Notes: generated by a model from the letters alone, not told the origin. A DNA stretch of 48,137 nt from a virus (IMGVR_UViG_3300009593_000028:1-48137), one strand, 5' to 3'. Counted from the first letter of the stretch, positions 25 to 18,552 are shown. Numbers and translations are program-made.

Positions 25-52
25 ATAAGAGTAATAACAAACAGAGGGCGAT

Positions 53-631: not shown

Positions 632-634
632 GGG

Positions 635-663
635 TTGACAAGCGAGTATTTTGGTAGTATAAT
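635..663 (+). promoter_or_regulatory. Early-type sigma70 promoter
   Basis: TTGACA at 635-640, a 17-bp spacer and TATAAT at 658-663, preceded by GGGG. It drives the 51-residue ORF at 689. It begins 3 bases after the previous stop codon. Confidence 0.9.
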
Positions 664-688
664 ATAACTATAAAATGAAGAGGGCGAT

Positions 689-1041: not shown

Positions 1042-1236
1042 ATGAGAATCGCAATGATGGGCCTCGTACTATTAATGGTCGGGGCCTGTACAGGCAAACC
1101 TGCAATAGACACTATCAGGGTAATCAACGCAACCAAGCACCTGAATAAGGATGGGCTGGTCAGCAATATGTACGAATGCGCCTATGATGCATTGGACACC
1201 AACAACAGAGGATCAGGCTGTCATCGTTCTAAATAG
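1042..1236 (+). CDS. Small predicted lipoprotein
   Basis: A 64-residue ORF with a short N-terminus, a hydrophobic stretch (MMGLVLLMVG) and the lipobox-like LMVGAC at about residues 11-16, where Cys16 would be the lipidated residue. The rest is short and polar with a few cysteines. This suggests an envelope lipoprotein, perhaps a superinfection or surface modifier, though that role is a guess. It follows the upstream gene without a gap and lies 5 bases before the tRNA. Confidence 0.65.
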   Translation: MRIAMMGLVLLMVGACTGKPAIDTIRVINATKHLNKDGLVSNMYECAYDALDTNNRGSGCHRSK

Positions 1237-1241
1237 ACATC

Positions 1242-1317
1242 GGTCCCTTAGTGTAGCGGTTAACACGTCGCCCTGTCACGGCGAAGATCAAGGGTTCAAA
1301 TCCCTTAGGGACCGCCA
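1242..1317 (+). tRNA. tRNA-Asp (GTC)
   Basis: A complete cloverleaf of 76 bases. The acceptor stem is GGTCCCT with AGGGACC (1242-1248/1307-1313). The D-stem is GTGT with ACAC. The anticodon stem is TCGCC with GGCGA around loop CTGTCAC, giving anticodon GTC. The T-arm is AAGGG with CCCTT around TTCAAAT. The discriminator base is G and CCA is encoded. It is the only tRNA I see in the window and is transcribed with the two preceding genes. Confidence 0.96.
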
Positions 1318-1349
1318 TAAAAAAAGATTAAAAAAGATTCATTTTTCGG

Positions 1350-1378
1350 TTGACAAGTAGGTAACCAGGTGCTATACT
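1350..1378 (+). promoter_or_regulatory. Early-type sigma70 promoter
   Basis: TTGACA at 1350-1355, a 17-bp spacer and TATACT at 1373-1378, 31 bases before the ATG at 1409. It starts 32 bases after the tRNA end. Confidence 0.88.
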
Positions 1379-1408
1379 ATATGTATAGAAACAAACAAAC
1401 GAGGGCAA

Positions 1409-1606
1409 ATGTTAGTTCAATTTAAAAATAGCGGATACCAGACTGTAGGAGACAAGAAGGACGTGAACGTCGTGAATATGCAATTATGCGAATTCAGAGG
1501 ATCACCACAGTTGAAGATAGAGAACCCCTGGTGGACAGGTGAGACACTTATAGCTGATTGGGCTGAGCATGATGGCGTGATGCAGTGGGTATGCGATTTA
1601 GATTAA
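1409..1606 (+). CDS. Small phage protein, unknown function
   Basis: A 65-residue acidic protein with several tryptophans near the C-terminus (NPWWTGETLIADWAEHDGV). No family recognised. It has its own promoter and an exact GAGGGCAAATG start. The next promoter begins 8 bases after its stop, so it is probably monocistronic. Confidence 0.68.
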   Translation: MLVQFKNSGYQTVGDKKDVNVVNMQLCEFRGSPQLKIENPWWTGETLIADWAEHDGVMQWVCDLD

Positions 1607-1613
1607 TTAGGGG

Positions 1614-1642
1614 TTGACAAGCGGTTAGAAAGATCGTATAAT
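1614..1642 (+). promoter_or_regulatory. Early-type sigma70 promoter
   Basis: TTGACA at 1614-1619, 17-bp spacer, TATAAT at 1637-1642, preceded by GGGG. It drives the three-gene run 1670-2216. Confidence 0.9.
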
Positions 1643-1669
1643 ATAATTATAAAATAAGAAAGAGGGCAA

Positions 1670-1837
1670 ATGACAACATTTTTATCGACAGTAGGAATTT
1701 TAAGTTTCATCTTAGCAGTAGGGGCAATTGATGGTCCTACTGGACACGAGATGGATAACTGGTGGGCCTGTTTGGGCTTCACTGTATTAGGTCTACTATG
1801 TATGGTAGGCGCATTGCAAAGACAAGGGGGCGAATAA
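1670..1837 (+). CDS. Small two-helix membrane protein
   Basis: A 55-residue ORF beginning MTTFLSTVGILSF. It has two hydrophobic segments (about residues 4-20 and 32-48) separated by a short polar turn (DGPTGHEMDNWW), suggesting a small helical-hairpin inner-membrane protein. The start has the regional GAGGGCAA leader. The stop overlaps the next start (TAATG), a translational-coupling arrangement. No function can be assigned. Confidence 0.68.
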   Translation: MTTFLSTVGILSFILAVGAIDGPTGHEMDNWWACLGFTVLGLLCMVGALQRQGGE

Positions 1838-2025
1838 TGTATATGCCAAGATCAACGGCGAGAGCCAACACTGATCGTCTGCTAGAGATGATCGAAGAGG
1901 GGATACTAGACAAGGACAATGTTATAATGGCCTGCGTCAAGTATATGTCAGAAGCTGACGTAGCCGATATGGCTCGCGTCAATGAGTTTTTTCCAGAATA
2001 TGATGAAGAAGGAGAGTATATATAA
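1837..2025 (+). CDS. Conserved T4-like phage small acidic protein
   Basis: A 62-residue protein starting MYMPRSTARANTDRLLEM. The layout (PRS, NTDRLLEMIEEG, then a KYMSEADVADM segment and an acidic tail) matches, from memory, a small protein found in marine T4-like phages. Its function is unknown to me. I placed the start at the TAATG junction with the upstream membrane protein. The longer reading frame to 1762 would run through that gene. It overlaps the next start by one base. Confidence 0.75.
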   Translation: MYMPRSTARANTDRLLEMIEEGILDKDNVIMACVKYMSEADVADMARVNEFFPEYDEEGEYI

Positions 2026-2216
2026 TGAAATGTTCGATCTGTTCTACTAAGATCATCCCTGACCCAATCTCGGGTTGGGATCAAGGTCACAATGCAGAGC
2101 CTGTTTCAGAGGGCCGTTGCTGTGATGAATGCAATACGGGATTGGTTATCCCAGCTAGAATATCTCAACTTTTTGGTAAAAAAGAGGTTGACAACCAACC
2201 CGAAATGAGTGTATAA
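2025..2216 (+). CDS. Small zinc-ribbon protein
   Basis: A 63-residue protein with paired cysteines: CSIC at residues 3-6 and CCDEC at about 32-36, separated by SGWDQGHNAEPV. This is a four-cysteine zinc-ribbon arrangement also found, from memory, in other marine phages. It probably binds zinc and may act on nucleic acid or a host protein; the role is inference. The start overlaps the upstream stop (TAATG). Its last codons contain the promoter for the next gene. Confidence 0.75.
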   Translation: MKCSICSTKIIPDPISGWDQGHNAEPVSEGRCCDECNTGLVIPARISQLFGKKEVDNQPEMSV

Positions 2217-2217
2217 T
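2188..2217 (+). promoter_or_regulatory. Early-type sigma70 promoter inside a gene end
   Basis: TTGACA at 2188-2193, an 18-bp spacer and TATAAT at 2212-2217, overlapping the last codons of the zinc-ribbon gene. It serves the gene at 2263. Confidence 0.85.
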
Positions 2218-2262
2218 CATACTATGATAAACAATAACACAGCCGAAGGAGGGCTCCAGACT

Positions 2263-2613
2263 ATGGCAACACAGAAAACTTTCAAGGTAGCAGGTACTAC
2301 ACGACTTCCATCAGGGACAGTCAAGATTAGATTTGCTAACGATTTGGTGAGTAGGATCAAAATCCTACACAAGAACGGGCATACCGATATGGAATTGCTT
2401 GAGCTTGGTGAAGAGCTAACAAAGGCTCAGATCTGCCAGATGTTGATTAACCACCCGAAATTCCAATCAGAAGAGCAACAGGACGCAATCAGCGAATTCG
2501 TTGTTAGGAATTGTAAGGCGATCGCTAAGGACTTTGGTCCAGACGCTAACCCAGGTTCAGAAGAGCCAGCGGTAAACGATATGGTTAAGCAAGAAGCAGA
2601 AGCAGTATCGTAA
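2263..2613 (+). CDS. Conserved marine-phage protein, unknown function
   Basis: A 116-residue protein starting MATQKTFKVAGTTRLPSG. It has a basic, beta-like N-terminus, a helical middle and an acidic C-terminal tail. I recall similar proteins in marine phages but no function. I chose the ATG at 2263 because GGAGGG lies upstream. The upstream ATGs at 2209 and 2224 lie in the -10 region or close to the likely transcription start. A strong terminator follows. Confidence 0.78.
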   Translation: MATQKTFKVAGTTRLPSGTVKIRFANDLVSRIKILHKNGHTDMELLELGEELTKAQICQMLINHPKFQSEEQQDAISEFVVRNCKAIAKDFGPDANPGSEEPAVNDMVKQEAEAVS

Positions 2614-2632
2614 AGAGATAAACCCAGAGGAC

Positions 2633-2660
2633 AGGCCCCCCAGAAATGGTTGGGCCTTTT
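2633..2660 (+). terminator. Intrinsic terminator
   Basis: Stem AGGCCC (2633-2638) with GGGCCT (2652-2657), an inner CCA/TGG helix capped by a GAAA loop, then a run of T. It lies about 20 bases after the stop at 2613 and directly before the next promoter. Confidence 0.85.
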
Positions 2661-2673
2661 CTCATCTTAGGGG

Positions 2674-2702
2674 TTGACAAACGTTTTAAATGATCATATA
2701 AT
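2674..2702 (+). promoter_or_regulatory. Early-type sigma70 promoter
   Basis: TTGACA at 2674-2679, 17-bp spacer, TATAAT at 2697-2702, preceded by GGGG. It follows a terminator, so this is a fresh transcription unit. Confidence 0.9.
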
Positions 2703-2761
2703 AATAGTAAGAAATGAGGGTTAGGGCGGCTGAATTCCCAGGTCGGAGACAAACACACCAC

Positions 2762-3007
2762 ATGCCTAAAGGATCTATGCAAAGAACAGAAACAGTAGAA
2801 CAGTATCTCGCCCGTGGCGGGAAGATTACCAAGCAAGAAGAAGTCAAGGTTATTAGTTGGGCTGAAGCTAGGGACTTGGTTGAGAAACTAGCATATATGG
2901 CCGAGGACAGCAAATTGTCCAAGAAAGAGGACGAGGCTGAGCTCGATAGGCTGGATGCCGCAGAGGGTTTCCAGGTTGATTATAAGGAAGAAGAAAAGGT
3001 AAATTAG
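2762..3007 (+). CDS. Small charged phage protein, unknown function
   Basis: An 81-residue, Glu/Lys-rich, mostly helical protein containing VEQYLARGGKITK, a short motif I have seen in small phage proteins of unknown role. The start is uncertain. The ATG at 2714 is only about 12 bases from the -10 box and lacks a ribosome-binding site. The ATG at 2762 (weak CGGAG upstream) or at 2777 is more likely. The stop lies 4 bases before the next promoter. Confidence 0.62.
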   Translation: MPKGSMQRTETVEQYLARGGKITKQEEVKVISWAEARDLVEKLAYMAEDSKLSKKEDEAELDRLDAAEGFQVDYKEEEKVN

Positions 3008-3010
3008 GGG

Positions 3011-3039
3011 TTGACAAACAGGATTGTAGACCTTATAAT
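3011..3039 (+). promoter_or_regulatory. Early-type sigma70 promoter
   Basis: TTGACA at 3011-3016, 17-bp spacer, TATAAT at 3034-3039, preceded by GGGG, 29 bases before the ATG at 3068. Confidence 0.9.
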
Positions 3040-3067
3040 AGTATTATAACAATTAGGAGGGCAACTT

Positions 3068-3439
3068 ATGCAAGACGTTTCAAACTACACCGTAGACCAA
3101 ATCCAGGACATTATCGCAGAGGCAAAGCAGGCCGCAAAGACAGCCGCTCAAGTCTGGGTAGATGATTGGAAGGCGAAGACCGGTGGTAACGAATACGGCG
3201 AGCCAATGTACTGTGGTTTCGCTTCGACGAAGATATATGGTGTTAAGGCTAGCACTAAATTAGGTAAGGCTTTTAAGGCCGCTGGGCTTTCGAAGGATTA
3301 CTCCGGAGCATTCAGCATATGGAACCCAAGTGAATGGGGTGGCCAGAGCATGGATGTTAAAGAAGCAGGGGCGCAGGCTTGTGCTGATGTATTCCGAAAG
3401 TATGGTTTTAAATCTTATATGGATTCTAGGGCCGACTAA
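3068..3439 (+). CDS. Conserved phage protein, unknown function
   Basis: A 123-residue soluble protein. An N-terminal alanine-rich helix (about residues 10-36) is followed by a conserved-looking segment EPMYCGFASTKIYG, then IWNPSEWGGQSMDVKEAG and a C-terminal YGFKSYMDSRAD. I recall related proteins in cyanophages and other T4-like phages, but no function. The start has a strong AGGAGGGC ribosome-binding site and its own promoter. Confidence 0.78.
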   Translation: MQDVSNYTVDQIQDIIAEAKQAAKTAAQVWVDDWKAKTGGNEYGEPMYCGFASTKIYGVKASTKLGKAFKAAGLSKDYSGAFSIWNPSEWGGQSMDVKEAGAQACADVFRKYGFKSYMDSRAD

Positions 3440-3447
3440 AAAAAAGG

Positions 3448-3476
3448 TTGACATCTAGTGCAAGAGATCATATAAT
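3448..3476 (+). promoter_or_regulatory. Early-type sigma70 promoter
   Basis: TTGACA at 3448-3453, 17-bp spacer, TATAAT at 3471-3476, 9 bases after the preceding stop codon. Confidence 0.9.
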
Positions 3477-3505
3477 CATAGTATAGTAAAAACAAAGAGG
3501 GCAAA

Positions 3506-4051
3506 ATGAAAATTTCAAAAGAATTCCAAACTATGTTAGATCACCTTGCACTAGAAAACAAGAAGACTGAGGCGTGGGTTGCAGAAGACCCCAAGAACAG
3601 ATGGGCAGGATTAAGTCCTTTGGACCCGGAGCATTGGGTGGAACGAGGCATCATGTCTATGGAGGCGCTAGAGAGAAGCGACCTTGAAATTTTCATTTAC
3701 GAAGAGCATAAGACGGCCTTTGGTTGCAAGGGTAGACATTATGACTTCGCTTCCATGAGCTTGGAGGAGTTGAAGAAGGAGGCTGACTATATTGCTTCCG
3801 CGGCCCAAGAGCAGATGAAGCTCGAGAAGCAGGCTGAAGAGAGAGCCACAATAGAATTAGAGAAGAGGATCACCGACATGGTGGCCTTGGGTGCAGGCGA
3901 TAGGAAGACCGCACTGAAGTGGATCATCGATGCAGATGGTCTTAACGACGAATATGATTTTGAATATATTCTTTGGAACTGGGGGGTTGGGTATAGAGGA
4001 CCTCACAGAGAAGAAGTGAAGGCCGTCCACGGAGAGTTGATGGCGGCTTAA
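3506..4051 (+). CDS. Phage protein with helical middle, unknown function
   Basis: A 181-residue acidic protein. Trp-containing N-terminal segments are followed by a long charged helix (about residues 85-130, probably coiled coil) and a C-terminal aromatic region (YDFEYILWNWGVGY). No family is recognised. It has its own promoter and an AGAGGGCAAAATG start. A perfect hairpin lies immediately after its stop. Confidence 0.75.
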   Translation: MKISKEFQTMLDHLALENKKTEAWVAEDPKNRWAGLSPLDPEHWVERGIMSMEALERSDLEIFIYEEHKTAFGCKGRHYDFASMSLEELKKEADYIASAAQEQMKLEKQAEERATIELEKRITDMVALGAGDRKTALKWIIDADGLNDEYDFEYILWNWGVGYRGPHREEVKAVHGELMAA

Positions 4052-4053
4052 CT

Positions 4054-4075
4054 GGTGTTGCAATAATGCAACACC
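4054..4075 (+). other. Perfect intergenic hairpin
   Basis: GGTGTTGCA (4054-4062) and TGCAACACC (4067-4075) form a perfect 9-bp stem around loop ATAA. There is no T-run, so it is not a classical terminator. It may be an RNA stability or processing element between the gene at 3506 and the small ORF at 4096, which has no promoter of its own. Confidence 0.7.
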
Positions 4076-4095
4076 TAATCGTTCACAGGAGGGTT

Positions 4096-4239
4096 ATGTT
4101 GAACACGATATTTCTAATAGGAATGGTAGCACTAGGGATCGTAGCATACGAGATGCAGATTCTTCATGTTGGGTTCGAGCTGGTCGGAGATGGTTTCCAC
4201 CTGCTTAGTGATTTAACCAATTCATCCAACATAATGTAA
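4096..4239 (+). CDS. Small membrane-anchored peptide
   Basis: A 47-residue ORF with an N-terminal hydrophobic helix (residues about 3-18, NTIFLIGMVALGIVAY) followed by a polar, partly amphipathic tail. The strong AGGAGGG ribosome-binding site 3 bases before the ATG is the main support. It is probably cotranscribed with the gene at 3506 through the hairpin. Function unknown. Confidence 0.6.
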   Translation: MLNTIFLIGMVALGIVAYEMQILHVGFELVGDGFHLLSDLTNSSNIM

Positions 4240-4246
4240 TTAGGGG

Positions 4247-4275
4247 TTGACTTTCAGACATGTTGAGACTATACT
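4247..4275 (+). promoter_or_regulatory. Early-type sigma70 promoter
   Basis: TTGACT at 4247-4252, 17-bp spacer, TATACT at 4270-4275, preceded by GGGG. One mismatch in each box. It drives the AAA ATPase gene. Confidence 0.85.
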
Positions 4276-4311
4276 CTATATATAACGTTAACAAATCAAA
4301 GCGAGGGCAAT

Positions 4312-5319
4312 ATGCAAAAGATTAAAATCATAGACGGAACTTATAAGATCCGCGGTAAGGACGTGGACTTAGCAGGTATGGTGTTTCCTTTAGTTGAAGG
4401 ATTCAAGTGGGGCACCAAGGGTGCTTACATCACCGTAGACGCGAAGGATGTAAATGGCTTCCCAGATCGTAACATTAAGATCATGGTTACCTCTGAGGAT
4501 TCATTTGAAGAGGTAGATCATACTACAGCGGTCACCCAGCGAGATGAGACTGATGAAGAGGTGATCGATAGGCTCCGTGAGCGATTCGAGATGTTGGAAG
4601 ACATGACGAAGGCCGCGAAGAAAGGTACAGTACGTGCCATGATAGTAAGTGGACCTCCAGGTGTTGGTAAGTCCTTTGGAGTTGAGAAAGTGCTAGGGAA
4701 GCATGACTTGATTGCTACCTTAGGGGAGAAGGCTCCACGTTACGAAGTTGTCAAGGGTGCTATGAGTGCAATAGGACTCTACTGTAAACTGTACAATTTC
4801 GCTGACAAGGATAATGTACTAGTATTCGACGACTGTGACTCAGTACTATTAGATGACCTTTCGTTGAACATTCTTAAAGCGGCACTTGATTCTAAGAAGT
4901 CAAGGCGTATACACTGGAACACAGACTCCTTTAAGTTACGTAATGAAGGCGTTCCGGATTCTTTCGAGTTCAAAGGTTCCGCGATATTCATTACGAATAT
5001 CAAATTCGATAACGTCAAGAGCAAGAAGCTAAGGGATCACTTAGAAGCTCTTGAGAGTAGATGTCATTACATCGACCTCACAATTGATACTGAGCGAGAG
5101 AAGTTACTCAGAATCAAGCAGATCACTAACGACGGTATGTTAGCTGAGTATGCATTGCCAGAGGGTGTGGCAGACGATATTGTGGACTTTGTAGACATTA
5201 ATAAGAAACGACTACGTGAACTGTCGCTAAGAACAGTTCTTAAGGTAGCTGACTTAGCTAAAGCATTCCCAGACAAATGGGAGGCAATGGCCGAGAATAC
5301 CGTGATGCGTCGAGGTTAA
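4312..5319 (+). CDS. AAA-family ATPase
   Basis: A 335-residue ATPase and the largest early gene. The N-terminal about 80 residues have no recognised fold. The AAA core has Walker A GPPGVGKS (114-121), Walker B VLVFDDCD (169-176), a sensor-1-like AIFITNIKF and an arginine-containing LESRCHYIDL. The C-terminal part is helical, as in AAA lid domains. It probably remodels a protein or nucleic-acid complex using ATP. AAA proteins of this size recur in T4-like phages, but the target is unknown. It has its own promoter and is followed by two tandem GC-rich hairpins. Confidence 0.88.
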   Translation: MQKIKIIDGTYKIRGKDVDLAGMVFPLVEGFKWGTKGAYITVDAKDVNGFPDRNIKIMVTSEDSFEEVDHTTAVTQRDETDEEVIDRLRERFEMLEDMTKAAKKGTVRAMIVSGPPGVGKSFGVEKVLGKHDLIATLGEKAPRYEVVKGAMSAIGLYCKLYNFADKDNVLVFDDCDSVLLDDLSLNILKAALDSKKSRRIHWNTDSFKLRNEGVPDSFEFKGSAIFITNIKFDNVKSKKLRDHLEALESRCHYIDLTIDTEREKLLRIKQITNDGMLAEYALPEGVADDIVDFVDINKKRLRELSLRTVLKVADLAKAFPDKWEAMAENTVMRRG

Positions 5320-8861: not shown

Positions 8862-9524
8862 ATGAGTACTAAAATTATAGTAGCACTTGACTATACTAAT
8901 CCCCTCGATGCATTAGAAATGACTGCGAAGTTACGAGATGTCGTAGATGGGTTTAAAATCAACCATTGTCTGTGGAGTCAAAGTGTCTACATAAAAGACT
9001 ATACTAAAGACAAAGAACTGTTTATGGATCTAAAGCTATGGGATACTCCAAATACAGTTAATCAAGTATTGCAAAAAATTATCGATAAAGGGTGTACAAT
9101 GACTACTATCTGCACACACAATAACCAAGGTGTGTTTGAAGCAGTACAGCCTTTTTCAAAATACGTTAAACTATTAGCAGTAACATATCTTACAAGTTGG
9201 ACCGCCGAAGACCGACATGATATAACAAACACTAGTAGAAACTTAATGTGGAGAAATCATTTAGACAGAATAAGCCCTTACGGGTTTAGTGGTATAATAT
9301 GCTCTGCAAGTGATATAGAAAACATTGCTAACTTAGAAAAACATTATATAAAAGTTTGTCCAGGAATACAATATGAAACAGAGAACACAGGTCAAAGCAG
9401 AACAACAACGCCAAGAAAAGCAAAAGAACTTGGTGCTGATTACTTGGTTATTGGAAGAAGCATTACTCAAGCGAGTGATCCAGTACAAACCGTAAACGAA
9501 ATACGAGAGAGCCTAAATGGATGA
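8862..9524 (+). CDS. pyrF: Orotidine-5'-phosphate decarboxylase
   Basis: A 220-residue protein for the last step of UMP synthesis, OMP to UMP plus CO2. Family motifs are all present: ALD at 8-10, FK at 31-32, the catalytic DLKLWD (Asp56, Lys58, Asp61), a PGIQ phosphate-site segment (167-170) and VIGRSITQASDP (196-207) with Arg199. Length is normal for the bacterial enzyme. It would boost pyrimidine supply during phage DNA synthesis. It is first in a compact operon and overlaps hemF by 8 bases, so it may be expressed with the heme genes. Its codons resemble those of its neighbours. Confidence 0.93.
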   Translation: MSTKIIVALDYTNPLDALEMTAKLRDVVDGFKINHCLWSQSVYIKDYTKDKELFMDLKLWDTPNTVNQVLQKIIDKGCTMTTICTHNNQGVFEAVQPFSKYVKLLAVTYLTSWTAEDRHDITNTSRNLMWRNHLDRISPYGFSGIICSASDIENIANLEKHYIKVCPGIQYETENTGQSRTTTPRKAKELGADYLVIGRSITQASDPVQTVNEIRESLNG

Positions 9525-10299
9525 CCAACAACGTAAAGCTCTGAATTGGTTTCAAGAGTTGCGTAGTCAAGTTTGGAATATCTGGCAACAGCATGAGCCG
9601 GGTTACTATACTGCTGTTCCACACACGTGGGAGAAAGGACAGTATAACATTCTTAAAGGAAAGCATTACGAAAAAGCAGGAGTTGCTTGGAGTAACGTAG
9701 AAGGATTGTTACCAGCACAAATGAGTTTACTTGCAGGTAAACCTTTTTGGTCATCTGGTACTAGTGTTGTAATACACCCTAGCAATCCTCATGTACCCGG
9801 AATGCATTTTAATACTCGCTTCATTACTACAGAAGATGAAAGATGGTTTGGTGGAGGAATGGATATAACACCTTACGTATACGAACCAGAAATACTTACA
9901 TGGTACAGAAAAGAATTAAAAGAGATGTGCGACTTTCACGATGTAAAGTATTATCCTAAGTTCTCAAAAGATTGTGATGAGTATTTTCATTTACATCATA
10001 GAGACGAACCAAGAGGTGCAGGGGGAATATTTTTTGATTACATGAGCGATGACTATGAAAATACTTTTAGGTTTATACAAGACGTTGGTCGGACGTTCAT
10101 TACAGTAATGACTAAGTTAGTACAAGAAAATAAACATAAAGGGTTTACAGAAGAAGAACGAAACGACCAGTTAGTTAAACGTGGGCGTTATGTAGAGTTT
10201 AACTTACTACATGATAAAGGAACACGTTTTGGATTAGAAAGTGGCGGCAATGTAAATGCTATATTAATGAGCATGCCTCCAGATGCAAGGTGGGAGTAA
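9517..10299 (+). CDS. hemF: Oxygen-dependent coproporphyrinogen III oxidase
   Basis: A 260-residue HemF, which converts coproporphyrinogen III to protoporphyrinogen IX using O2, late in heme synthesis. Family landmarks are intact: HPSNPHVPG near His87, HFNTR (97-101), WFGGGMDITPY (110-120), HHRDEPRGAGGIFFD (160-174), RGRYVEFNL (222-230) and TRFGLESGG (236-244). It is shorter than the usual protein of about 300 residues. It ends just after MPPDARWE, so the usual C-terminal segment is missing, and the N-terminus is compact. The start overlaps pyrF by 8 bases and the stop overlaps hemB (TAATG). Confidence 0.95.
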   Translation: MDDQQRKALNWFQELRSQVWNIWQQHEPGYYTAVPHTWEKGQYNILKGKHYEKAGVAWSNVEGLLPAQMSLLAGKPFWSSGTSVVIHPSNPHVPGMHFNTRFITTEDERWFGGGMDITPYVYEPEILTWYRKELKEMCDFHDVKYYPKFSKDCDEYFHLHHRDEPRGAGGIFFDYMSDDYENTFRFIQDVGRTFITVMTKLVQENKHKGFTEEERNDQLVKRGRYVEFNLLHDKGTRFGLESGGNVNAILMSMPPDARWE

Positions 10300-11105
10300 T
10301 GGATTTAATACAACCAATATTTGTTAATGAAAACCAAACAGAAGAATCTCCTTTAGGGGAGAACAATAAACTTTATAACATTTCTGATATACATGATCGA
10401 ATAAAGAAAGATATCGATTTAGGTATAAACAAATTTTTATTATTCTGTGTACCACTAGAAAAAGATACCGATCCTAAATGGCAATGGCAAGGAGAAGTAG
10501 TACACGAAATTAAAAACAAACATGATATTAATTTGCATGTTGATATATGTTTGTGTTCGACTATGCCAGACGGACATTGCAACGTTACTGATGATCCTAA
10601 AAAGACAGAACAGTTATTACAAGAACAAGCATCAGTAGTATCTGTTGCAGGTGCTGATGTACTTGCACCGTCAGACTGCCAACCTAATACTGTAGTAAAC
10701 ATGAAGCAGTATATTGATAAACCTGTAATGAGTTATAGTGCAAAGTTTAGATCTGTATTCTATCATGGTTGGAGAGATGCGGTAAATATAGACGCAGGTA
10801 TAGTAAGAGATTATCAGCTTAACCCCAGAGAATCAAATGAAGCTATTGAACGTTGCATTAAATATGCTAACGATGGGGCTGATTATATGATGGTTAAACC
10901 CGGCATGCCATCATTAGATTTAATATATCCAATTCAACGTGCAACTGGATTACCAACGGGTGTTTACCAAACATCGGGTGAATATATGGGCTTGCCAAGA
11001 GCGCCAGGCTCCTTGTTGGAAACGTACTATATATTTAAACGAGCCGGAGCTGACTATATGATAACATATGGCGCAAGAGACTTAACAGGAGAAATAAATG
11101 AGTAG
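10299..11105 (+). CDS. hemB: Delta-aminolevulinic acid dehydratase (porphobilinogen synthase)
   Basis: A 268-residue HemB, which joins two 5-aminolevulinates into porphobilinogen. Both Schiff-base lysines are visible: SYSAKF (Lys149) and MMVKP (Lys200). The three zinc cysteines are at 84, 86 and 94 (CLCSTMPDGHC), as in zinc-dependent enzymes. YQTSGEYM and RAGADYMITYGA are also typical. The protein lacks the long N-terminal arm (family length about 325) that stabilises the octamer in known enzymes. APSDCQPNTV replaces the usual APSDMMDGR. The ATG at 10299 is preferred over an upstream GTG because of the TAATG overlap. Confidence 0.93.
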   Translation: MDLIQPIFVNENQTEESPLGENNKLYNISDIHDRIKKDIDLGINKFLLFCVPLEKDTDPKWQWQGEVVHEIKNKHDINLHVDICLCSTMPDGHCNVTDDPKKTEQLLQEQASVVSVAGADVLAPSDCQPNTVVNMKQYIDKPVMSYSAKFRSVFYHGWRDAVNIDAGIVRDYQLNPRESNEAIERCIKYANDGADYMMVKPGMPSLDLIYPIQRATGLPTGVYQTSGEYMGLPRAPGSLLETYYIFKRAGADYMITYGARDLTGEINE

Positions 11106-11670
11106 TAAGTTAAAAGAGTTAACTTGGGAAAACCACAAAAAAGCAGAGCGAATGAGTCATGCTCGTAAATTACTAAAAGGAATGGATCCAGAAGAGTATC
11201 ACATATTTGTATACAATCAATATGTTCAATATAGAGCATTAGAAAAGATAGCAAGGTCACGTGGTTTACTAGAGGGAATAGAAGGTATTTGTAGAGCATC
11301 TGCTATGGCAACAGATATGCAAGAACTAGAACATGAGTATCATATAAAACGTGATAAGAAAATGCTTTGTAATGTTGTTATGGAGTATGTTGATTATCTT
11401 GAGAGTTTAGATAACGATGGAATAATTGCACACATCTATGTTAGACACTTTGGTGAATTACATGGTGGACAGATGATTAAGAAACGTGCTCCAGGATCAG
11501 GCACAATGTATGACTTTGTTGATCCTAAAAAAATAATTGAAGACGTAAGAGAAAAACTGCATGACGACATGGCTCCTGAAGCTAATCGTTGTTTTCAGTT
11601 TGCAATGCAACTATTTGAAGAATTAGAGGAACACGCTAAAGACCATAGGTTACATGAAAGGTTAGAATAA
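11098..11670 (+). CDS. Heme oxygenase (biliverdin-forming type)
   Basis: A 190-residue heme oxygenase, which opens heme to biliverdin, CO and Fe2+ using O2 and electrons. LKELTWENHKKAER holds the proximal His13. The signature segment YVRHFGELHGGQ (114-125) matches the family's distal-helix Y-R-GDLSGGQ motif. Length is slightly below the 210-240 usual for bacterial and cyanobacterial enzymes. Cyanophage heme oxygenases are followed by a bilin reductase; none is seen here. It overlaps hemB by 8 bases, so heme making and heme breaking are coupled in one operon. Confidence 0.92.
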   Translation: MSSKLKELTWENHKKAERMSHARKLLKGMDPEEYHIFVYNQYVQYRALEKIARSRGLLEGIEGICRASAMATDMQELEHEYHIKRDKKMLCNVVMEYVDYLESLDNDGIIAHIYVRHFGELHGGQMIKKRAPGSGTMYDFVDPKKIIEDVREKLHDDMAPEANRCFQFAMQLFEELEEHAKDHRLHERLE

Positions 11671-11918
11671 TGAACTTTGTTTACGTACTAATACTAGTAG
11701 GTTTCATGGACGGATTTGTATTAACATCCGTCGATGGAATATTTGAGTCTGAAGAAGAATGCTTTTGGGCAATGCAAGATTCTATTGAATCTATGCTTAT
11801 TCCAGGAGAAGAAGAAATCCACCCTATAGGATATGATGCTGTATGTATTAAAACTGATGATATATATGCATTAGGTCCTTTAGGATTAGAAAGCGAACTA
11901 GGATTAGATCGCCCTTAA
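11670..11918 (+). CDS. Small protein at end of heme operon
   Basis: An 82-residue protein with a hydrophobic start (FVYVLILVGFMDGFVL) and a strongly acidic remainder with two cysteines. It could be signal-anchored and periplasmic, with a short disulfide domain. Translation is coupled to the heme oxygenase by TAATG. No link to heme chemistry is visible in the sequence itself. Confidence 0.7.
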   Translation: MNFVYVLILVGFMDGFVLTSVDGIFESEEECFWAMQDSIESMLIPGEEEIHPIGYDAVCIKTDDIYALGPLGLESELGLDRP

Positions 11919-12005: not shown

Positions 12006-12058
12006 TTTTAAGAGCCATTTAGGCACAAAAACCATGCATTTAAGGAGTCTGTCGTATA

Positions 12059-12082
12059 GGGTAAAAATTACCCTTCTTCTTT
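12059..12082 (+). terminator. Weak terminator of the heme operon
   Basis: GGGTAA (12059-12064) pairs with TTACCC (12068-12073) around AAA, followed by TTCTTCTTT. The symmetric stem might also act on the minus strand, where the run after it is less T-rich. Confidence 0.5.
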
Positions 12083-12093
12083 AAAATTTGACG

Positions 12094-12879
12094 TTATAAG
12101 TTGGGGATAGTATTTCCGGGTGCTTTAGCTAATTCAATTAATTCTGCACAAAGCCCTGGGTGAGTAACTTTATCAGTATGTTTTAGAAACCTAGTTGTAA
12201 ATCCTGTTTCTAAATTAACTGGTTCGTTTTTGGTAAATCGATTAAACAACTTTTCAGCAAACACAGAATGGTTTGCTACTGTCATATGATTAGCTCTAGT
12301 GTCAATGCTTTGGTTATACCATTTATTCATTTCGTCATCGTTAATAAATTCTGCATCACACACAGACCACGTCATTGATCCATGACAAGGAACTAAGTCA
12401 GTCCATGACACATTAATATTAAAGCTAGGAATAACTTGTAAATGAATTTCTCTTTCAATCATTTTTACACGTATGCTATCTAACAAATGTTCTAACCTTA
12501 ATTGATCAATATCATCTCTTTGAAGATGTAACCAATAATCCATTGCGGCATTATACTTTTCTTTTTCTTTTGATTTTAAGTCTTCAGCATCTTTAGTATT
12601 TGAAATACTTGTTAAGTTAGATAGGTAAGGTCGGTCTTCCCAGAACCATTGTCTAGCTGGATTAGTAATAAAGAAAATAACAATATCATCTTTTTCATGT
12701 TTGTCGTCACGGAACGTCTTTGCTCCCCAATCATTTGAACTTCCACTACAAGATTGGTTAACAACTCTTAACTCTGGGTAATAGTCTTGAGCAAGTTTGT
12801 TTGCTAAAATTCTTTGCCATCCCCAATCAACTTTCCAGTCAACTCCGAAGCTGTCTCCGTATATCCATAACGTTCTCAT
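12094..12879 (-). CDS. SGNH/GDSL-type hydrolase-like protein
   Basis: A 261-residue protein with the block I motif YGDSFG (Ser10), the oxyanion-type GSSND at 46-50 and a C-terminal HPG (His240). These make the Ser-His pair of SGNH hydrolases, which often remove or transfer acyl groups on sugars and lipids. Substrate unknown. It overlaps the nitrilase gene by 4 bases. Two more SGNH-like proteins are encoded at 38467 and 39252 in the glycan island, so acyl modification of a glycan is the likeliest shared theme (inference). Confidence 0.78.
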   Translation of the reverse strand: MRTLWIYGDSFGVDWKVDWGWQRILANKLAQDYYPELRVVNQSCSGSSNDWGAKTFRDDKHEKDDIVIFFITNPARQWFWEDRPYLSNLTSISNTKDAEDLKSKEKEKYNAAMDYWLHLQRDDIDQLRLEHLLDSIRVKMIEREIHLQVIPSFNINVSWTDLVPCHGSMTWSVCDAEFINDDEMNKWYNQSIDTRANHMTVANHSVFAEKLFNRFTKNEPVNLETGFTTRFLKHTDKVTHPGLCAELIELAKAPGNTIPNL

Positions 12880-13649
12880 AAACTTAACTCTACAGTAGCA
12901 ATATCGTCGCCTTTATCTTTACACTTCTTAATCCATTCTCCATTAGGACCTATAATGCCACTTGGACATTGTATATGGTCAACAGGGTCGCCTCGCATAT
13001 CATTAGTTGCTCCACTTACTACTGTGTGCATACCAAACTCTCTACTAAACAATCTTAAATGGTTTTCATGCCATTCATATACAAGAGGATCAAGAAAATC
13101 AATATTACAATTTACAGAACAAAACACAACCTTTACATCATACTTTCTAAACTCTCTATAAAAATACGGATTCCCATTTGGACTCATTTTAGGAAATGCC
13201 CATATATCGTTACATATTAAACTAGACCCTACTATTGTTTGTTTGTCATCTAAGTAATAGTAATGTGCTTCGTTACCTGGCACATAATAAAAAAGTTCAC
13301 CTGGAGCATGTGTATCATTTGTAAGTAATCGTTTAGCATAGGCTCCAGCATAGGTTCCTTTATGATAAGCTCTAACTTGGTTATACGGTAATCCGTTTGC
13401 TTCTATGTGTCCTGTACCTAATAACATACTTCTTTTATTTTTTGCAAGATAGTCTTCGATCTCTTTTAATGCAGGACCGTAGTCAGCATTTTTAACTTCA
13501 TGTGTTTGGTTATAGCAGTATCCACTTAAACTTCCTTCTGGAGTTAATACCCAATCACTATCTTTAGTTTTTTCTAATAGGTCTAATATGTATTCTTTGT
13601 TATCTTTAACGTGTTTAAAAACAGGTTGTTGGCTTGTTGATATAATCAT
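12876..13649 (-). CDS. Carbon-nitrogen hydrolase (nitrilase superfamily)
   Basis: A 257-residue amidase or nitrilase-fold protein. The Glu-Lys-Cys triad is visible: Glu38 in TPEGSLSGY, Lys106 in AYAKRL and Cys146 in SLICNDIW. It probably cleaves a C-N bond in a small amide, carbamoyl or nitrile compound. Alternatively it could act as an amide-hydrolysing or acyl-transferring step in glycan or nucleotide modification. It overlaps both neighbours by 4 bases and so is expressed with the SGNH protein and the conserved protein upstream. Confidence 0.85.
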   Translation of the reverse strand: MIISTSQQPVFKHVKDNKEYILDLLEKTKDSDWVLTPEGSLSGYCYNQTHEVKNADYGPALKEIEDYLAKNKRSMLLGTGHIEANGLPYNQVRAYHKGTYAGAYAKRLLTNDTHAPGELFYYVPGNEAHYYYLDDKQTIVGSSLICNDIWAFPKMSPNGNPYFYREFRKYDVKVVFCSVNCNIDFLDPLVYEWHENHLRLFSREFGMHTVVSGATNDMRGDPVDHIQCPSGIIGPNGEWIKKCKDKGDDIATVELSL

Positions 13650-14350
13650 TTGTACTTCTTCTTTTGGTGGAATATTCTTTTATAAGCATTTGTAAGGAAA
13701 AATTTTAATGAAGTATCTCTTGCCTTACCAGCTTCGTCTACTTCTACTTCCATTTCCCAGTCTTCTCTTTTAAAAGGAAAAATTTGCATTAATGGTGTAC
13801 CTGGTTGAATAGTTACTGTTTCTTCTGCACCAGTATTCATATGTCCAGGCCAATTAGACCATGGAACATCTATAACATCAGTATCAACTATTCCTGGCCA
13901 TAAAGTAAACCTTTCTTCAAAATGAAAATATGGTGGCTGTATTAAACAAGAATATCCTGGAGGTGTTTCTATTCTCCACGGAACAGAAAACGTAATAAAA
14001 TCTCTTCTGTTTCCTTTTACATGTACTGGACATTGTTCATGCATATGACCTTCGTTTGGTTCTTGCATATCTGCCCAGGCCATAGGAAATCTTCTATTGA
14101 ATGATATTATATCTTCGCTATCGTGTCTTATACCACATTTTATTTCTTGTTCTACAGGAGTATGTACAATGTATCCAGCAGTCATCATATCGTAAACTGG
14201 CATACATTTCTTAATAGTTGGCGGACTAGTATTAGGTTCTCCTAACCATCCAGGCATATCGTTATACCATTTTGGTCTTTCCTTTGAAGCTAGTGTCGGA
14301 GGAAAATGTTTTGCTACATGCTTGTCACCACAGATAAATTTTATTTTCAT
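13646..14350 (-). CDS. Conserved phage protein (DUF6065-like)
   Basis: A 234-residue protein with the segments ERPKWYNDMPGW, TIKKCMPVYDMMTAGYIV, FSVPWRIETPPGYSCL and PGIVDTDVIDVPW. This pattern fits a family of uncharacterised proteins in cyanophages and other phages that I associate with DUF6065; the number is from memory. It looks like a beta-rich enzyme or binding protein. It overlaps the gp41 helicase and nitrilase genes by 4 bases each. Confidence 0.72.
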   Translation of the reverse strand: MKIKFICGDKHVAKHFPPTLASKERPKWYNDMPGWLGEPNTSPPTIKKCMPVYDMMTAGYIVHTPVEQEIKCGIRHDSEDIISFNRRFPMAWADMQEPNEGHMHEQCPVHVKGNRRDFITFSVPWRIETPPGYSCLIQPPYFHFEERFTLWPGIVDTDVIDVPWSNWPGHMNTGAEETVTIQPGTPLMQIFPFKREDWEMEVEVDEAGKARDTSLKFFLTNAYKRIFHQKKKYK

Positions 14351-15780
14351 TCTTCGTCAGTTCCTAAGTTAGCTAAAAATGATCGCAACTTAGTTGAATC
14401 TGCTTCAGCTTTAATTTTACCTACAGGTGCTCCTATCTTAGGATCAACTTCTGTATCTTCGTCTGTGTTAGTTGTTGATGAGTTTCTTTTTAATGTACTC
14501 ATGATGTTACTTTTTTGTGCTGAATAATCTTCCTCGTCGTCTTGATCTAAATCTCTAATACGTAAACTATCTACATCAAATTCTAAATCAACTTTACTAC
14601 CTACTCCACTTGATGATCTTGTTTTCATAAGTTGGATTTGATATCTGCCACGTTCACGCATAGCTCTACTTGTAAAAATACCTATCACATTATCAGCAGT
14701 TTGTATCTTACTTAACCCACCACTAATGTGTGAATGATCAAACTCAATCTCTTCAACACTTGCTCTGTTCAATTGTGATGCTGTAACGAACACACAGTTT
14801 AGTTCCATCGCCAAGTTACGTAGTTCTTCAGATACAAACTTGTCTTTGATAAACAAGTTCTCAGCACTTACTTTTGCTCCATTGGGCATCATCAAATCTA
14901 AATAGTCAACTAGTAATGCATCTACTTTCCTATTCATTTTAATTTCATATTCTTTTAAATATGATCTAATATCGTTTGGAGTTTTACCACTTGGCATATA
15001 CTTAACTTGCAATGCTCCTGCTTTCTTTCCAATCATCTTAACTTTCATTTCAACGTCATCAACATCTTTAAAAATGTCTCTACTTGGAATGTCAGTTACC
15101 ATACTATCAATTCTCATACTAACTAAATTTTCACTAAGTTCAAAAGTTAAGTACAAAACATTCATTCCTGCTAACGCCCAGTTAACACCTAAGTTAGCTA
15201 AGAATAAAGATTTACCTGCACCACTACCTCCTGCAAAAATGTTTAGTTCGCCTTTATTAAATCCACCAAAAAGTCTTTTATCTAAACTCTCCCAACCTGT
15301 AGTAACCTGTCCATTACTACTTTTTATTGACATTAATCTTTGTTTAGGATCAGCCCAATAGTCTGTACCAAGATCTTTTTGCAATCCAATTTGTACTGCA
15401 TTTTTAATCTTTGCTTCTACTGGACCATACTCACCTTTTTCAAGTAAGTCAGCACTTTCTAATATTGCTCTTTCTAAACTTTTATGTCTGCTAAATGTTT
15501 CAAAGTCTGCTAACAGCCAATCATAATGGCTTTCTTGTAATCTTGTTGGTACTTCTAATTGTACTTGGCATGCCGCATTTATCATCTCTTGTGTTGGAAG
15601 TACATTGTGTTCACTAACATACGTAGCTAAAAAGTCAGCCGCCTTTTGTAATCTTCTATCAAATAAACTTGGATCAAATATACCTTGACACCTTACAAAA
15701 CTTTCTGCGTCACTTAACATCATTTCAAGATATACTTTTTGTATATCATATCCGTAATCTACATTTTGTTTTTCTACCAT
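14347..15780 (-). CDS. 41: Replicative DNA helicase, T4 gp41-like (DnaB family)
   Basis: A 477-residue hexameric 5'-3' helicase of the phage replisome. The N-terminal helical domain (about 1-140) is followed by the RecA-like motor with Walker A GGSGAGKS (184-191) and Walker B ALLVDYLDLM (288-297). Later come the ASQLNR and SHISGGLSKIQTAD segments typical of DnaB-family helicases. Length matches T4 gp41. It partners with the primase at 17566 to form the primosome. The start overlaps the upstream stop (TAATG). Confidence 0.95.
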   Translation of the reverse strand: MVEKQNVDYGYDIQKVYLEMMLSDAESFVRCQGIFDPSLFDRRLQKAADFLATYVSEHNVLPTQEMINAACQVQLEVPTRLQESHYDWLLADFETFSRHKSLERAILESADLLEKGEYGPVEAKIKNAVQIGLQKDLGTDYWADPKQRLMSIKSSNGQVTTGWESLDKRLFGGFNKGELNIFAGGSGAGKSLFLANLGVNWALAGMNVLYLTFELSENLVSMRIDSMVTDIPSRDIFKDVDDVEMKVKMIGKKAGALQVKYMPSGKTPNDIRSYLKEYEIKMNRKVDALLVDYLDLMMPNGAKVSAENLFIKDKFVSEELRNLAMELNCVFVTASQLNRASVEEIEFDHSHISGGLSKIQTADNVIGIFTSRAMRERGRYQIQLMKTRSSSGVGSKVDLEFDVDSLRIRDLDQDDEEDYSAQKSNIMSTLKRNSSTTNTDEDTEVDPKIGAPVGKIKAEADSTKLRSFLANLGTDEE

Positions 15781-16091
15781 TATGTTCCTACAAAGTGTTT
15801 AACAATGCCAGTTGCAAAAATAAAAACTGCTACGCCGTTAATAAAAATTAATGCTCTATCATGCCAAAGATATCCTACAATGCCCCAGCCTACTACGCCA
15901 AAGAAATGAAAGTACAAGTTCCAAGGCTCCATGCCTCCAGCACTAGTCAGTACCATTCCAATAAGAATAATAAAACATGAAAGCCATTTTACATACCAAC
16001 TTAGGTCGTATTTTGGTGTTACCTTTTTAAAAACTCTTGTTGAGTTAAGTTCTTTAATTTTTTCGTCTAATTTTTTGTATACTTGATTCAT
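15780..16091 (-). CDS. Small conserved membrane protein
   Basis: A 103-residue protein with a basic, helical N-terminus (about 1-30) and three hydrophobic segments (about 33-50, 58-75 and 80-98), including the motif NLYFHFFGVVGWGIVGYLWHD. Small proteins with this layout occur in marine phages. It begins 5 bases after the -10 box of its own promoter, so its mRNA may be leaderless. It is coupled to gp41. Confidence 0.72.
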   Translation of the reverse strand: MNQVYKKLDEKIKELNSTRVFKKVTPKYDLSWYVKWLSCFIILIGMVLTSAGGMEPWNLYFHFFGVVGWGIVGYLWHDRALIFINGVAVFIFATGIVKHFVGT

Positions 16092-17056
16092 ACTTTATTA
16101 TACCATACTTTGTCAGAATAGTCAACATGTTTCTTTAGTTTACTTAGCACACCACCTATACAGCTCCCTGGGTCTCCTGGATTCTTAGGTATCCAAAGGC
16201 TATTCCAATCCTTTTCAATTTTTTGGTTAGCTTGTTTGTTTAATGCACACCCGCCTGTAATAATTAAGTTCTTACTAGGTAAGTTCTTTAAGCACCAATC
16301 AGAGTTGGATTTTAAAATCTTTTCATATAAAAATTGTGTAGCATAAGCAAGATTGTTTAAGTCTTTCTTTGATTGCATATCGGGTAATAACCATTTACAA
16401 CCTTTATGTAAGTTATGTTTAAAATGAACACCCGGTAAACAGCCATCAAGATTATTATGTAATAGTTCTTTTTCTACTAAGCCAACTAATCTTGCATCAC
16501 CCTTTTTAGCCATTCCAGCAATCATATATTCATCTTTGTTTGGCACAAGCCCACAACGTTGCGTCATTGCACTATAAAACAAACCTACACTATGTGGATA
16601 CTTCTGACTATATACTTTCTTTAAGTTTGGTCCTTCACCCTTCCAAATAGTTAAACTTTCCCATTCGCCGATACTATCCATAACAAGAATAGATGCATCT
16701 AATTCTTTTTGTGTATAATAACCATATGCCGCATGTGCATGATGATGCCAAGCATATTCTATTGGTGCTGTTATGTCCCATTGTGAGAGATATTTTTTAA
16801 TGTTATTCTCTTTTGCTAACCAACCTTGACCTGCATATAGTTGTCTTGTAGTTTTCCAAAAAGGTTTTTCGTACCACACAATTTTATCTGGCTTGCCATA
16901 GGCTTGATTAGCCGCTTCGATCATAGTCCAGTTAAAATCAGGATCATTATCTACCTTACTAAAATCTTTAGCCATACATGCCCACCAGAGCTTGTCGTCT
17001 ACAAAACAAGCCAGACTTGCATCATGACTATTTCCTACCATTCCCCATGTAATCAA
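16088..17056 (-). CDS. Carbamoyltransferase-like protein (NodU/TobZ N-terminal type)
   Basis: A 322-residue protein of the Kae1-like carbamoyltransferase domain. It has the metal-binding HHHAHAA motif (104-110), VMDSIGEWES, PNKDEYMIAGMAKKGD and LIITGGCALN. Full-length NodU/TobZ enzymes (about 550 residues or more) carry an additional C-terminal domain, absent here. It probably transfers a carbamoyl group to a hydroxyl on a sugar or modified base, alone or with a partner. No second half is seen in the window. The 3' end contains the gp41-block promoter. Confidence 0.85.
   Translation of the reverse strand: MITWGMVGNSHDASLACFVDDKLWWACMAKDFSKVDNDPDFNWTMIEAANQAYGKPDKIVWYEKPFWKTTRQLYAGQGWLAKENNIKKYLSQWDITAPIEYAWHHHAHAAYGYYTQKELDASILVMDSIGEWESLTIWKGEGPNLKKVYSQKYPHSVGLFYSAMTQRCGLVPNKDEYMIAGMAKKGDARLVGLVEKELLHNNLDGCLPGVHFKHNLHKGCKWLLPDMQSKKDLNNLAYATQFLYEKILKSNSDWCLKNLPSKNLIITGGCALNKQANQKIEKDWNSLWIPKNPGDPGSCIGGVLSKLKKHVDYSDKVWYNKV
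16097..16125 (-). promoter_or_regulatory. Sigma70 promoter for the gp41 block, leaderless geometry
   Basis: On the minus strand: TTGACT (16125-16120), a 17-bp spacer and TATAAT (16102-16097), then 5 bases to the ATG at 16091. It sits inside the 3' end of the carbamoyltransferase-like gene. Confidence 0.82.
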
Positions 17057-17066
17057 ATCCTTCTCC

Positions 17067-17201
17067 CTAAAAGTTTATATGATAATACTCTTTTACTATT
17101 TTTGTTTTTGGTTTATTAATAATTTCTTTTTCTACAATGTATACTATCATAACTCCTAGTAGCACAAAAGAAATTATTAACAACATTAATTCATCTTTCA
17201 T
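17067..17201 (-). CDS. Small single-helix membrane peptide
   Basis: A 44-residue ORF starting MKDELMLLIISFVLLGVM with one transmembrane helix (about 5-22) and a basic C-terminal tail. It starts one base after the stop of the DUF2061-like gene, so it could be translated by re-initiation. There is no clear ribosome-binding site. Confidence 0.45.
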   Translation of the reverse strand: MKDELMLLIISFVLLGVMIVYIVEKEIINKPKTKIVKEYYHINF

Positions 17202-17202
17202 A

Positions 17203-17418
17203 TTATTTTTTTGCTATCCACATCCTATCAAGTACAAAGAACCATATTGCATTAACTAGTGGTTCTACAACGGCATCTGTTGCCGCTACTGATAAAGGAA
17301 CATCTGCTATTAACATTAAACAAGTTATTGCTATTACAAAATGTCCTAACGTATAGATTATCGTACGTAGTAAAGATCCTTGATATCCTTCTACTTTTGC
17401 TATTATTGCTTTGACCAT
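17203..17418 (-). CDS. Small membrane protein, DUF2061-like
   Basis: A 71-residue protein with two hydrophobic segments and the pattern SLLRTIIYTLGHF then ATDAVVEPLVNAIWFFVLDRMW. This matches DUF2061 predicted membrane proteins (Ser-Leu-x-Lys/Arg-Thr start, Glu in the second helix, aromatic/Trp end). Function unknown. The start has GGAGTAGTA upstream. Confidence 0.72.
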   Translation of the reverse strand: MVKAIIAKVEGYQGSLLRTIIYTLGHFVIAITCLMLIADVPLSVAATDAVVEPLVNAIWFFVLDRMWIAKK

Positions 17419-17434
17419 TACTACTCCTTACTAA

Positions 17435-17578
17435 CTACTTGTATATAAACGGGTCTTGCTTTTGTAGTTTCTTTATTTTTTCTTTTATCTTTTTCTCTCG
17501 TTTATAATCGTTATACTTCTCGATCCAAAAACGAATAGGAAAAGTAAAATGAAACCAAATTGATTTTAACCAATCCAC
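17435..17578 (-). CDS. Small basic protein ending in DPFIYK
   Basis: A 47-residue ORF with a GTG start at 17578, preceded by AGGAGC. It reads MDWLKSIWFHFTFPIRFWIE, then a Lys-rich helix and the ending KLQKQDPFIYK. I recall small proteins with this ending in cyanophages and pelagiphages. It overlaps the primase stop by 13 bases. Function unknown; the N-terminus is amphipathic and may sit at the membrane. Confidence 0.62.
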   Translation of the reverse strand: MDWLKSIWFHFTFPIRFWIEKYNDYKREKKIKEKIKKLQKQDPFIYK

Positions 17579-18552
17579 TTTTTTGCTCCTAATTTAATTT
17601 TAAGTTCGTTCCATTCTGCACTTGCTACAATAGAATGTAGTGTGTAGATTTTACCATACTTTTGTACAGCCTCATTAACGTCTTTTACGTCAGTATCCCA
17701 TTCGGGCATACTTACTCCCCACTTCAAGCCAATTGCTTGATTAATAATATTTTTACCTGCTTTATCTCTGTCAGGCACAACTATTACTTTTGTATTTAAA
17801 CTATTAATCAACATAGCTTGTTGATCTTTGATTTCGTTACCTAGTAATGCAACACCTTCTACGGCAATAGCATCAAACGGTCCTTCAACAACAACAGTAT
17901 AAATTCTACCATGCATTTGATTGTCTAAGTTAAACACATAACCTGGTTGTTGCTCACTTATATACTTTGGATTTCCATCTTTAACTTTCCTTGCAGTATA
18001 TCCAACTAGTTGTTTGTTATGATAAAACGGAACAATTAACCTATCTCTATTTCCATTAACAGGAGACCAATAAAACTCGTAGTCGTCAAAATATAATTGT
18101 CTTTTCTTTAAGTAATCAAATACTGCTAATAACTGTTCATCATCATTGTTAAAGTCTTTTGCCCATTCTTGTAAAGGTCTTGCTCCTTCAGGCAGATGCT
18201 TTAATTCAAATTTAGGAAGTTGTAAATCTTCTGTTAGTTTGTTAGTTTCTGTTTCTAATACTGCTAAACTTATTTTTGTAATTTTATCATCTGGAATGTT
18301 TAACCATTGCATCAGTCTTTTCATTTTATACGTAATTCTTCTGCCTGGTTTCCAACTTGCTTTATAACCACAGTTGAAACAATGATAGCTCGTACCTTCT
18401 TGTGGATTGTTTATAATCCCACCACGTTGTCGTGTGTCTGCTCCTGTACCATTATGTACACAACATGGAGCATTAAAGCTAGTCCACCCACTTGGAGTAG
18501 TCTTTCTTTTATGTGGTAAGTGTGCGATCAGAGTTTCATATACTATATTCAT
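17566..18552 (-). CDS. 61: DNA primase, T4 gp61-like
   Basis: A 328-residue primase. The N-terminal zinc site uses Cys30/Cys31, His33, Cys58 and Cys61. The TOPRIM core has VVEGPFDAIAVEG with Glu223, and VVPDRDKAG with Asp260 and Asp262. It makes RNA primers for lagging-strand synthesis with gp41. Length matches T4 gp61 (about 340). The ATG lies 6 bases after the -10 box of a strong promoter, so the message may be leaderless. Confidence 0.94.
   Translation of the reverse strand: MNIVYETLIAHLPHKRKTTPSGWTSFNAPCCVHNGTGADTRQRGGIINNPQEGTSYHCFNCGYKASWKPGRRITYKMKRLMQWLNIPDDKITKISLAVLETETNKLTEDLQLPKFELKHLPEGARPLQEWAKDFNNDDEQLLAVFDYLKKRQLYFDDYEFYWSPVNGNRDRLIVPFYHNKQLVGYTARKVKDGNPKYISEQQPGYVFNLDNQMHGRIYTVVVEGPFDAIAVEGVALLGNEIKDQQAMLINSLNTKVIVVPDRDKAGKNIINQAIGLKWGVSMPEWDTDVKDVNEAVQKYGKIYTLHSIVASAEWNELKIKLGAKKWIG

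Follow-up and report, generated by a model that had tools for sequence, protein, structure and literature searches.

The phage fragment analysed here carries a putative operon in which two enzymes of heme synthesis are encoded together with an enzyme that opens heme. The window, meaning the whole stretch of DNA analysed, is an IMG/VR virus record of 48,137 bases, and at a locus between an AAA ATPase gene and a DnaB gene it holds, in order, genes for an orotidine-5'-phosphate decarboxylase (OMPDC), a coproporphyrinogen oxidase (HemF), a porphobilinogen synthase (HemB) and a heme oxygenase (HO). Our main reading, to which we assign a probability of roughly 50%, is that this operon raises flux through the host tetrapyrrole pathway, with HO converting heme to biliverdin, iron and CO.

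The PyrF-type OMPDC (8862..9524, +, 220 aa; Pfam and PDB alignment) is followed by HemF, of the oxygen-dependent coproporphyrinogen III oxidase type (9517..10299, +, 260 aa; Pfam, PDB alignment and Foldseek), zinc-type HemB (10290..11105, +; 271 aa from a GTG at 10290 or 268 aa from an ATG at 10299) and HO (11098..11670, +, 190 aa; Pfam and PDB alignment). Directly 3' of HO lies an 82-aa ORF with no assigned function (11670..11918, +), a homologue of which is found close to HO in a related contig, L004 (53% identity). Overlaps are 8 bases for OMPDC/HemF and for HemB/HO and 1 base for HO and the 82-aa ORF, and that of HemF with HemB is 1 base from the ATG or 10 bases from the GTG. The place, strand and intact reading frames of the four head-to-tail genes given by the initial annotation are therefore correct, as are its overlaps of 1 to 8 bases unless HemB starts at the GTG. 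Promoter and terminator scans of the region gave matches no commoner than chance, which also applies to a possible intrinsic terminator 3' of the operon (12058..12074, +), recognised by its match to the consensus alone; we infer co-transcription of the genes. All four enzymes exceed the curated Pfam cut-offs (OMPdecase, E = 7e-33; Coprogen_oxidas, 1e-78; ALAD, 2e-54; Heme_oxygenase, 7e-17), and the genes are under purifying selection, with pairwise dN/dS of 0.08–0.22 for HemF, HemB, HO and OMPDC among pairs with estimable dS, several pairs being saturated. Together with the PDB alignments and the conserved phage flanks described below, these values bear out the earlier claim of enzyme genes in a phage operon.

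PDB alignment places the OMPDC catalytic tetrad K-(D-x-K-x-x-D) at K32, D56, K58 and D61, with R199 also present. HemF scored 264 bits against Pfam PF01218 and 295.7 bits against an NCBIfam cut-off of 297, and it retains the blocks HPxNPxxPxxHxNxR, GGGxDxTP and HRxExRGxGGxFF as well as active-site residues H87, H97, R101, D116, H161, R162, R166 and D233 (PDB alignment). When its AlphaFold model, which was built from a thin alignment (mean pLDDT 80) and is of low confidence over C-terminal residues 234–254 including K234, was searched with Foldseek, the top 19 matches were all coproporphyrinogen oxidases (best E = 3e-22). Lys234 stands at the position of Arg401 in human CPOX. A damaged, C-terminally truncated HemF was considered and rejected, as HemFs of Pelagibacteraceae and other marine bacteria stop at the same place.

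The active site of HemB is likewise present, with the Schiff-base lysines K152 and K203, P-site residues S229 and Y260 (PDB alignment), the further residues R162, R173 and Q176, and zinc ligands C87, C89 and C97, which are invariant in five aligned phage HemBs. The N-terminal arm of about 25–35 residues, used for octamer assembly, is absent; PDB chains align only from residue 27–45, and the reading frame, which opens at 10218, contains no start codon before the GTG at 10290. The arm is also absent from the HemBs of contigs L032 and L069–72, and the phage HemBs all begin at the same place. A structure-library match to the AlphaFold model (thin alignment, mean pLDDT 76) identified the catalytic core as a HemB fold. 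The protein scored 185 bits against a Pfam PF00490 cut-off of 24.6, and its 178 bits fall under the NCBIfam equivalog cut-off of PRK09283 (297 bits). A single-sequence HemB scan of viral contigs gave no matches, and a two-sequence alignment as query recovered six loci; in the viral contigs searched, phage HemB was found only in the lineage defined by this DnaB. A contig scan reaching only sequences that share the phage HemB motifs gave no bacterial source. In one SAR86-labelled contig (L136:67-2810) HemB and HemF lie near each other, which may be a bacterial precedent for their pairing.

In HO, the proximal histidine ligand is H13 (PDB alignment), and the distal motif reads GELHGG, which places Glu120 where the catalytic Asp of GDLSGG stands in most HOs. 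The earlier claim of intact catalytic residues is thus upheld for OMPDC, HemB and the HO histidine, but it overlooked HO Glu120, HemF Lys234 and the missing HemB arm. The GELHGG motif is common to the HOs of L001–L006, which are 69–73% identical to the window protein, and to the HO of contig G019, which adjoins a bilin reductase. As a bilin reductase needs biliverdin, HOs of this type are probably active. The distal Glu, HemF Lys234 and the missing HemB arm could nevertheless mean lower activity, which counts against the main reading.

The flanks of the operon are those of a phage. The window carries DnaB (a replicative helicase, 14347..15780, -), a Toprim primase-like protein, a ResIII-type helicase and a RecA-like protein. 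DnaB, which adjoins the locus and serves as the lineage marker, is 52% identical to that of PA5oct-like Pseudomonas jumbo phages and Agrobacterium phage Atu_ph07, hence the window is most likely a fragment of a marine large-genome (jumbo-phage) lineage. The left anchor of the variable locus, the AAA ATPase (4312..5319, +), is 78–96% identical in relatives. Most window genes match a 66.7 kb contig (G005), mainly at 42–96% identity, and many match one of 117 kb (G015). Between the operon and DnaB (12094-14350, -) are GDSL-like, carbon-nitrogen-hydrolase-like and DUF6065-like genes whose order is kept in HO-bearing relatives. A single tRNA-Asp lies at 1242-1317, and an ORF at 53-631 was matched by none of the relatives searched.

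A join between a bacterial contig and phage sequence, the outcome which the initial annotation had named as fatal to its proposal, is excluded by the conserved phage flanks, and we give an assembly artefact of this kind next to no probability. A shift in GC, from 0.42–0.45 over positions 1–5000 to about 0.35 beyond, could be read in its favour, but these genes recur in independent contigs beside the same phage neighbours (orf70, orf133 and DnaB), and G005 and G015 have kept genes on either side of the operon. Furthermore, the window HemF is 53–57% identical to HemFs of the viral lineage and 41–50% identical to the nearest bacterial HemFs. In the HemF tree it falls into one clade with those of L028–32 (SH-aLRT of the phage lineage clade, 99). 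Pelagibacteraceae and other marine alphaproteobacterial HemFs share its C-terminal end, whereas the lineage phage HemFs form a clade of their own. Among the bacterial HemFs sampled, a set shaped by the search motif, those of Pelagibacteraceae and other marine bacteria lie near this clade (about 45% identity), so that the exact sister group is provisional. Matches to HemF, HemB and OMPDC in INPHARED (Acinetobacter MD-2021a, Listeria, Staphylococcus and others; about 30–38% identity) are probably bacterial sequence inside phage records, and were not used as phage evidence. The HemF kinship, a 5-ALA synthase (ALAS) in a relative and the hosts of the phages with the nearest DnaB, which include infecters of Agrobacterium and Sinorhizobium, lead us to guess at a host among marine Alphaproteobacteria.

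The initial annotation had proposed a search for the same gene order, and this search recovered subsets of the operon at the same locus in relatives. OMPDC-HemF occurs in L028–L030, HemF-HemB in L031/L032, HemB with one or two IscU-type scaffold genes in L069, L071 and L072, and HO with a TonB-dependent receptor and a DUF6580 membrane protein in G005 and G004 (loci L006 and L004). The links of HemF to OMPDC and to HemB are therefore old and repeated. ALAS, IscU-type genes and SufB each occur widely among viral contigs. SufB lies directly 5' of OMPDC in two phage contigs (L030:119-1144 and L343:10001-11664), a pairing with no known reason. Two different IscU-type (NifU_N) genes flank HemB in L072 (576-1019 and 4800-5186), the TonB-dependent receptor and DUF6580 genes beside HO (L004:7189-9451 and L006:3368-5627) may serve to import an iron chelate, heme or cobalamin, and a gene recognised by eye as ribosomal protein bL12-like (L032:8372-8737) lies near HemF-HemB.

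Such differences in content between relatives would also be expected if the locus between the AAA ATPase and DnaB were a mosaic hot spot, collecting unrelated metabolic genes that share phage expression signals; HemF, HemB and HO could then be neighbours without forming one working pathway. No pathway connects OMPDC with heme, and, among relatives of the window OMPDC (66–76% identical; L028–30, L042 and G002), the one in L042 sits within a sugar-nucleotide cluster recognised by eye. It is probably a passenger of the expression unit which, as part of the same putative transcript, would supply UMP for phage nucleotide synthesis. However, many of the genes swapped in concern heme or iron (HemB, HemF, HO, SufB, two IscU-type genes and the TonB receptor), a HemF partner is kept at 53–57% protein identity, and ALAS, HemB, HemF and HO are united again, at separate genome places, in a related population (see below). 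We regard an indiscriminate hot spot as rather unlikely, with about one chance in four. The operon and the iron-cofactor genes exchanged at the same spot suggest that the phage takes over the heme and iron economy of its host, and SufB, the IscU-type genes and the TonB receptor fit this iron-cofactor theme.

In the main reading, HemB would condense two 5-ALA to porphobilinogen, HemF would convert coproporphyrinogen to protoporphyrinogen with O2, host enzymes would supply the remaining steps to heme, and HO would open heme to biliverdin, Fe2+ and CO. HO would thus be the exit of one forward path and not an opponent of HemB and HemF. Speaking against forward flux, HO or HemB occurs alone in relatives, so the coupling is not obligatory, and ALAS, the usual rate-limiting step, was not found in the 48-kb window.

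ALAS is, however, encoded by relatives. The ALAS of contig G017, encoded about 29 kb before HemF-HemB, scores 581 bits and so exceeds the equivalog cut-off. A second contig (G034) is about 98–99.8% identical to it in pieces totalling about 50 kb (about 99.7% over most), reaches 1.8 kb further left and carries DnaK, ClpS and a GDLSGG-type HO, thus the two represent one phage population with ALAS, HemB, HemF and HO. Three contigs whose ALAS is 91–94% identical (G037, G039 and G042) carry a bilin reductase at a distance of about 1.5 kb from HO, so that the path in these relatives would run on towards bilins. In the two for which gene order was listed, G037 and G042, a halogenase-like FAD protein lies between HO and the reductase. 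These runs, found in phages with ALAS 91–100% identical to that of G017, comprise ClpS, HO, a 498-aa flavin-dependent tryptophan-halogenase-like protein and bilin reductase (L431:15473-18501 in G037; L440:468-3553 in G042), and the version in G034 (L428:1-1473) stops inside the FAD protein, before any reductase position. The halogenase-like enzyme was recognised by eye, and its presence prompts the question whether the bilin is modified. NifU C-terminal-like, AlkB-like membrane hydroxylase and phosphate-permease-like genes were also recognised by eye in G017 (L086:4172-4513 and 15386-17848).

Biliverdin itself might be the useful product, as chromophore or signal for a host phytochrome or for a phage bilin enzyme elsewhere in the genome, with HemB and HemF feeding HO. 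The HO-halogenase-reductase runs, although their HO is of a different type, and the G019 GELHGG HO beside its reductase speak for this, but the 48-kb window and the contigs of five relatives with this HO yielded no reductase, and we think this reading improbable, below each of the other biological readings. The absence of a bilin reductase from the window, as the initial annotation had stated, proved typical of HO genes in this lineage. None was detected in six of six HO contigs of the lineage (G000–G005, all fragments; G002, which lacks DnaB, was placed by its HO at 73% identity and a few other genes), compared with a reductase in all 12 HO contigs outside it in the same search, and in most other marine viruses examined HO is accompanied by one. 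As all lineage HO contigs are partial, what shows is uncoupling at the locus, rather than genome-wide absence of the reductase.

This uncoupling is also consistent with iron salvage, either a narrower version of forward flux or an alternative to it, in which HO would free Fe2+ from host heme for iron enzymes of phage and host, and HemB and HemF would sustain respiratory heme in separate pools or at separate times. SufB and IscU-type genes in relatives, 2OG-Fe oxygenases in the window and relatives, a related contig with ribonucleotide reductase, Rieske-type and AlkB-like genes (by eye) and the discussion of an iron-supply role for phage HO in PMC11480375 agree with it. HemB and HemF, on the other hand, feed an iron sink and not a source, and ferrochelatase, ferritin or an iron regulator were not among the genes recognised in an unsystematic look at partial contigs. 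Iron salvage is a possibility we hold tentatively, somewhat above the mosaic hot spot. As to the product, we lean to iron as what the phage wants, over biliverdin or sustained heme for respiration, given that a bilin reductase is missing and that relatives carry Fe-S and TonB genes. HO acts on heme and not on iron-free porphyrin. The earlier suggestion that HO clears toxic porphyrin is weak for this reason, and also because co-expression of a phage HO and reductase in E. coli did not lower porphyrin accumulation (PMC11480375).

The initial annotation had presented the operon as one that both makes and breaks heme, a combination already published for marine and freshwater phages, which carry it as the valaS-hemO-pcyA/X cassette (Wegner et al. 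2024, PMC11480375). Our operon resembles this cassette in joining tetrapyrrole-synthesis genes to HO, and the G017/G034 relative also encodes ALAS and HO. It differs in having HemB and HemF as the synthesis genes and OMPDC as a further member of the operon, and neither ALAS nor bilin reductase, which adjoin hemO in valaS-hemO-pcyX, was found in the 48-kb window. The published main text does not mention hemB or hemF, and its marine contigs were placed with myovirus-type pelagiphages (PMC11480375), unlike the PA5oct-like lineage of the window. A pelagimyophage 'deep ecotype' described in 2020 shares a coproporphyrinogen oxidase among heme-synthesis genes, but has porphobilinogen deaminase (HemC) in place of HemB and, in the part of the source considered here, no mention of a heme oxygenase (PMC7029224). 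The HemFs of L033–L040, 42–44% identical to that of the window and in a separate clade, may be of this type. The HOs of cyanophages and of Pelagibacter phage Mosig (MT647606) belong to the same Pfam family at 26–34% protein identity. Cyanophage HO comes with bilin reductases (pebS, pcyA). A literature search covering few subscription papers found no report of a phage HemB or of this four-gene operon, and no relevant paper on phage porphobilinogen synthase or hemF as auxiliary metabolic genes; to our knowledge, phage HemB, here without its N-terminal arm, and the operon are new.

If the main reading is true, phage control of tetrapyrroles would reach beyond ALAS, the first step, to HemB, the second, and to HemF, a late one, and would tie synthesis to heme breakdown in a single operon, with Fe-S assembly and uptake genes in relatives. 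More speculatively, and with somewhat less than one chance in three, this lineage reserves one locus for interchangeable iron-cofactor genes (HemB, HemF, HO, SufB, IscU and TonB receptor) by which it rebuilds the heme and Fe-S economy of its host; the armless HemB would then be changed in assembly and regulation, and HO would work uncoupled from the making of bilins. The armless HemB offers a natural way to test how far catalysis depends on the octamer machinery, and the operon a testable case of iron and heme as a limiting currency in infected marine bacteria.
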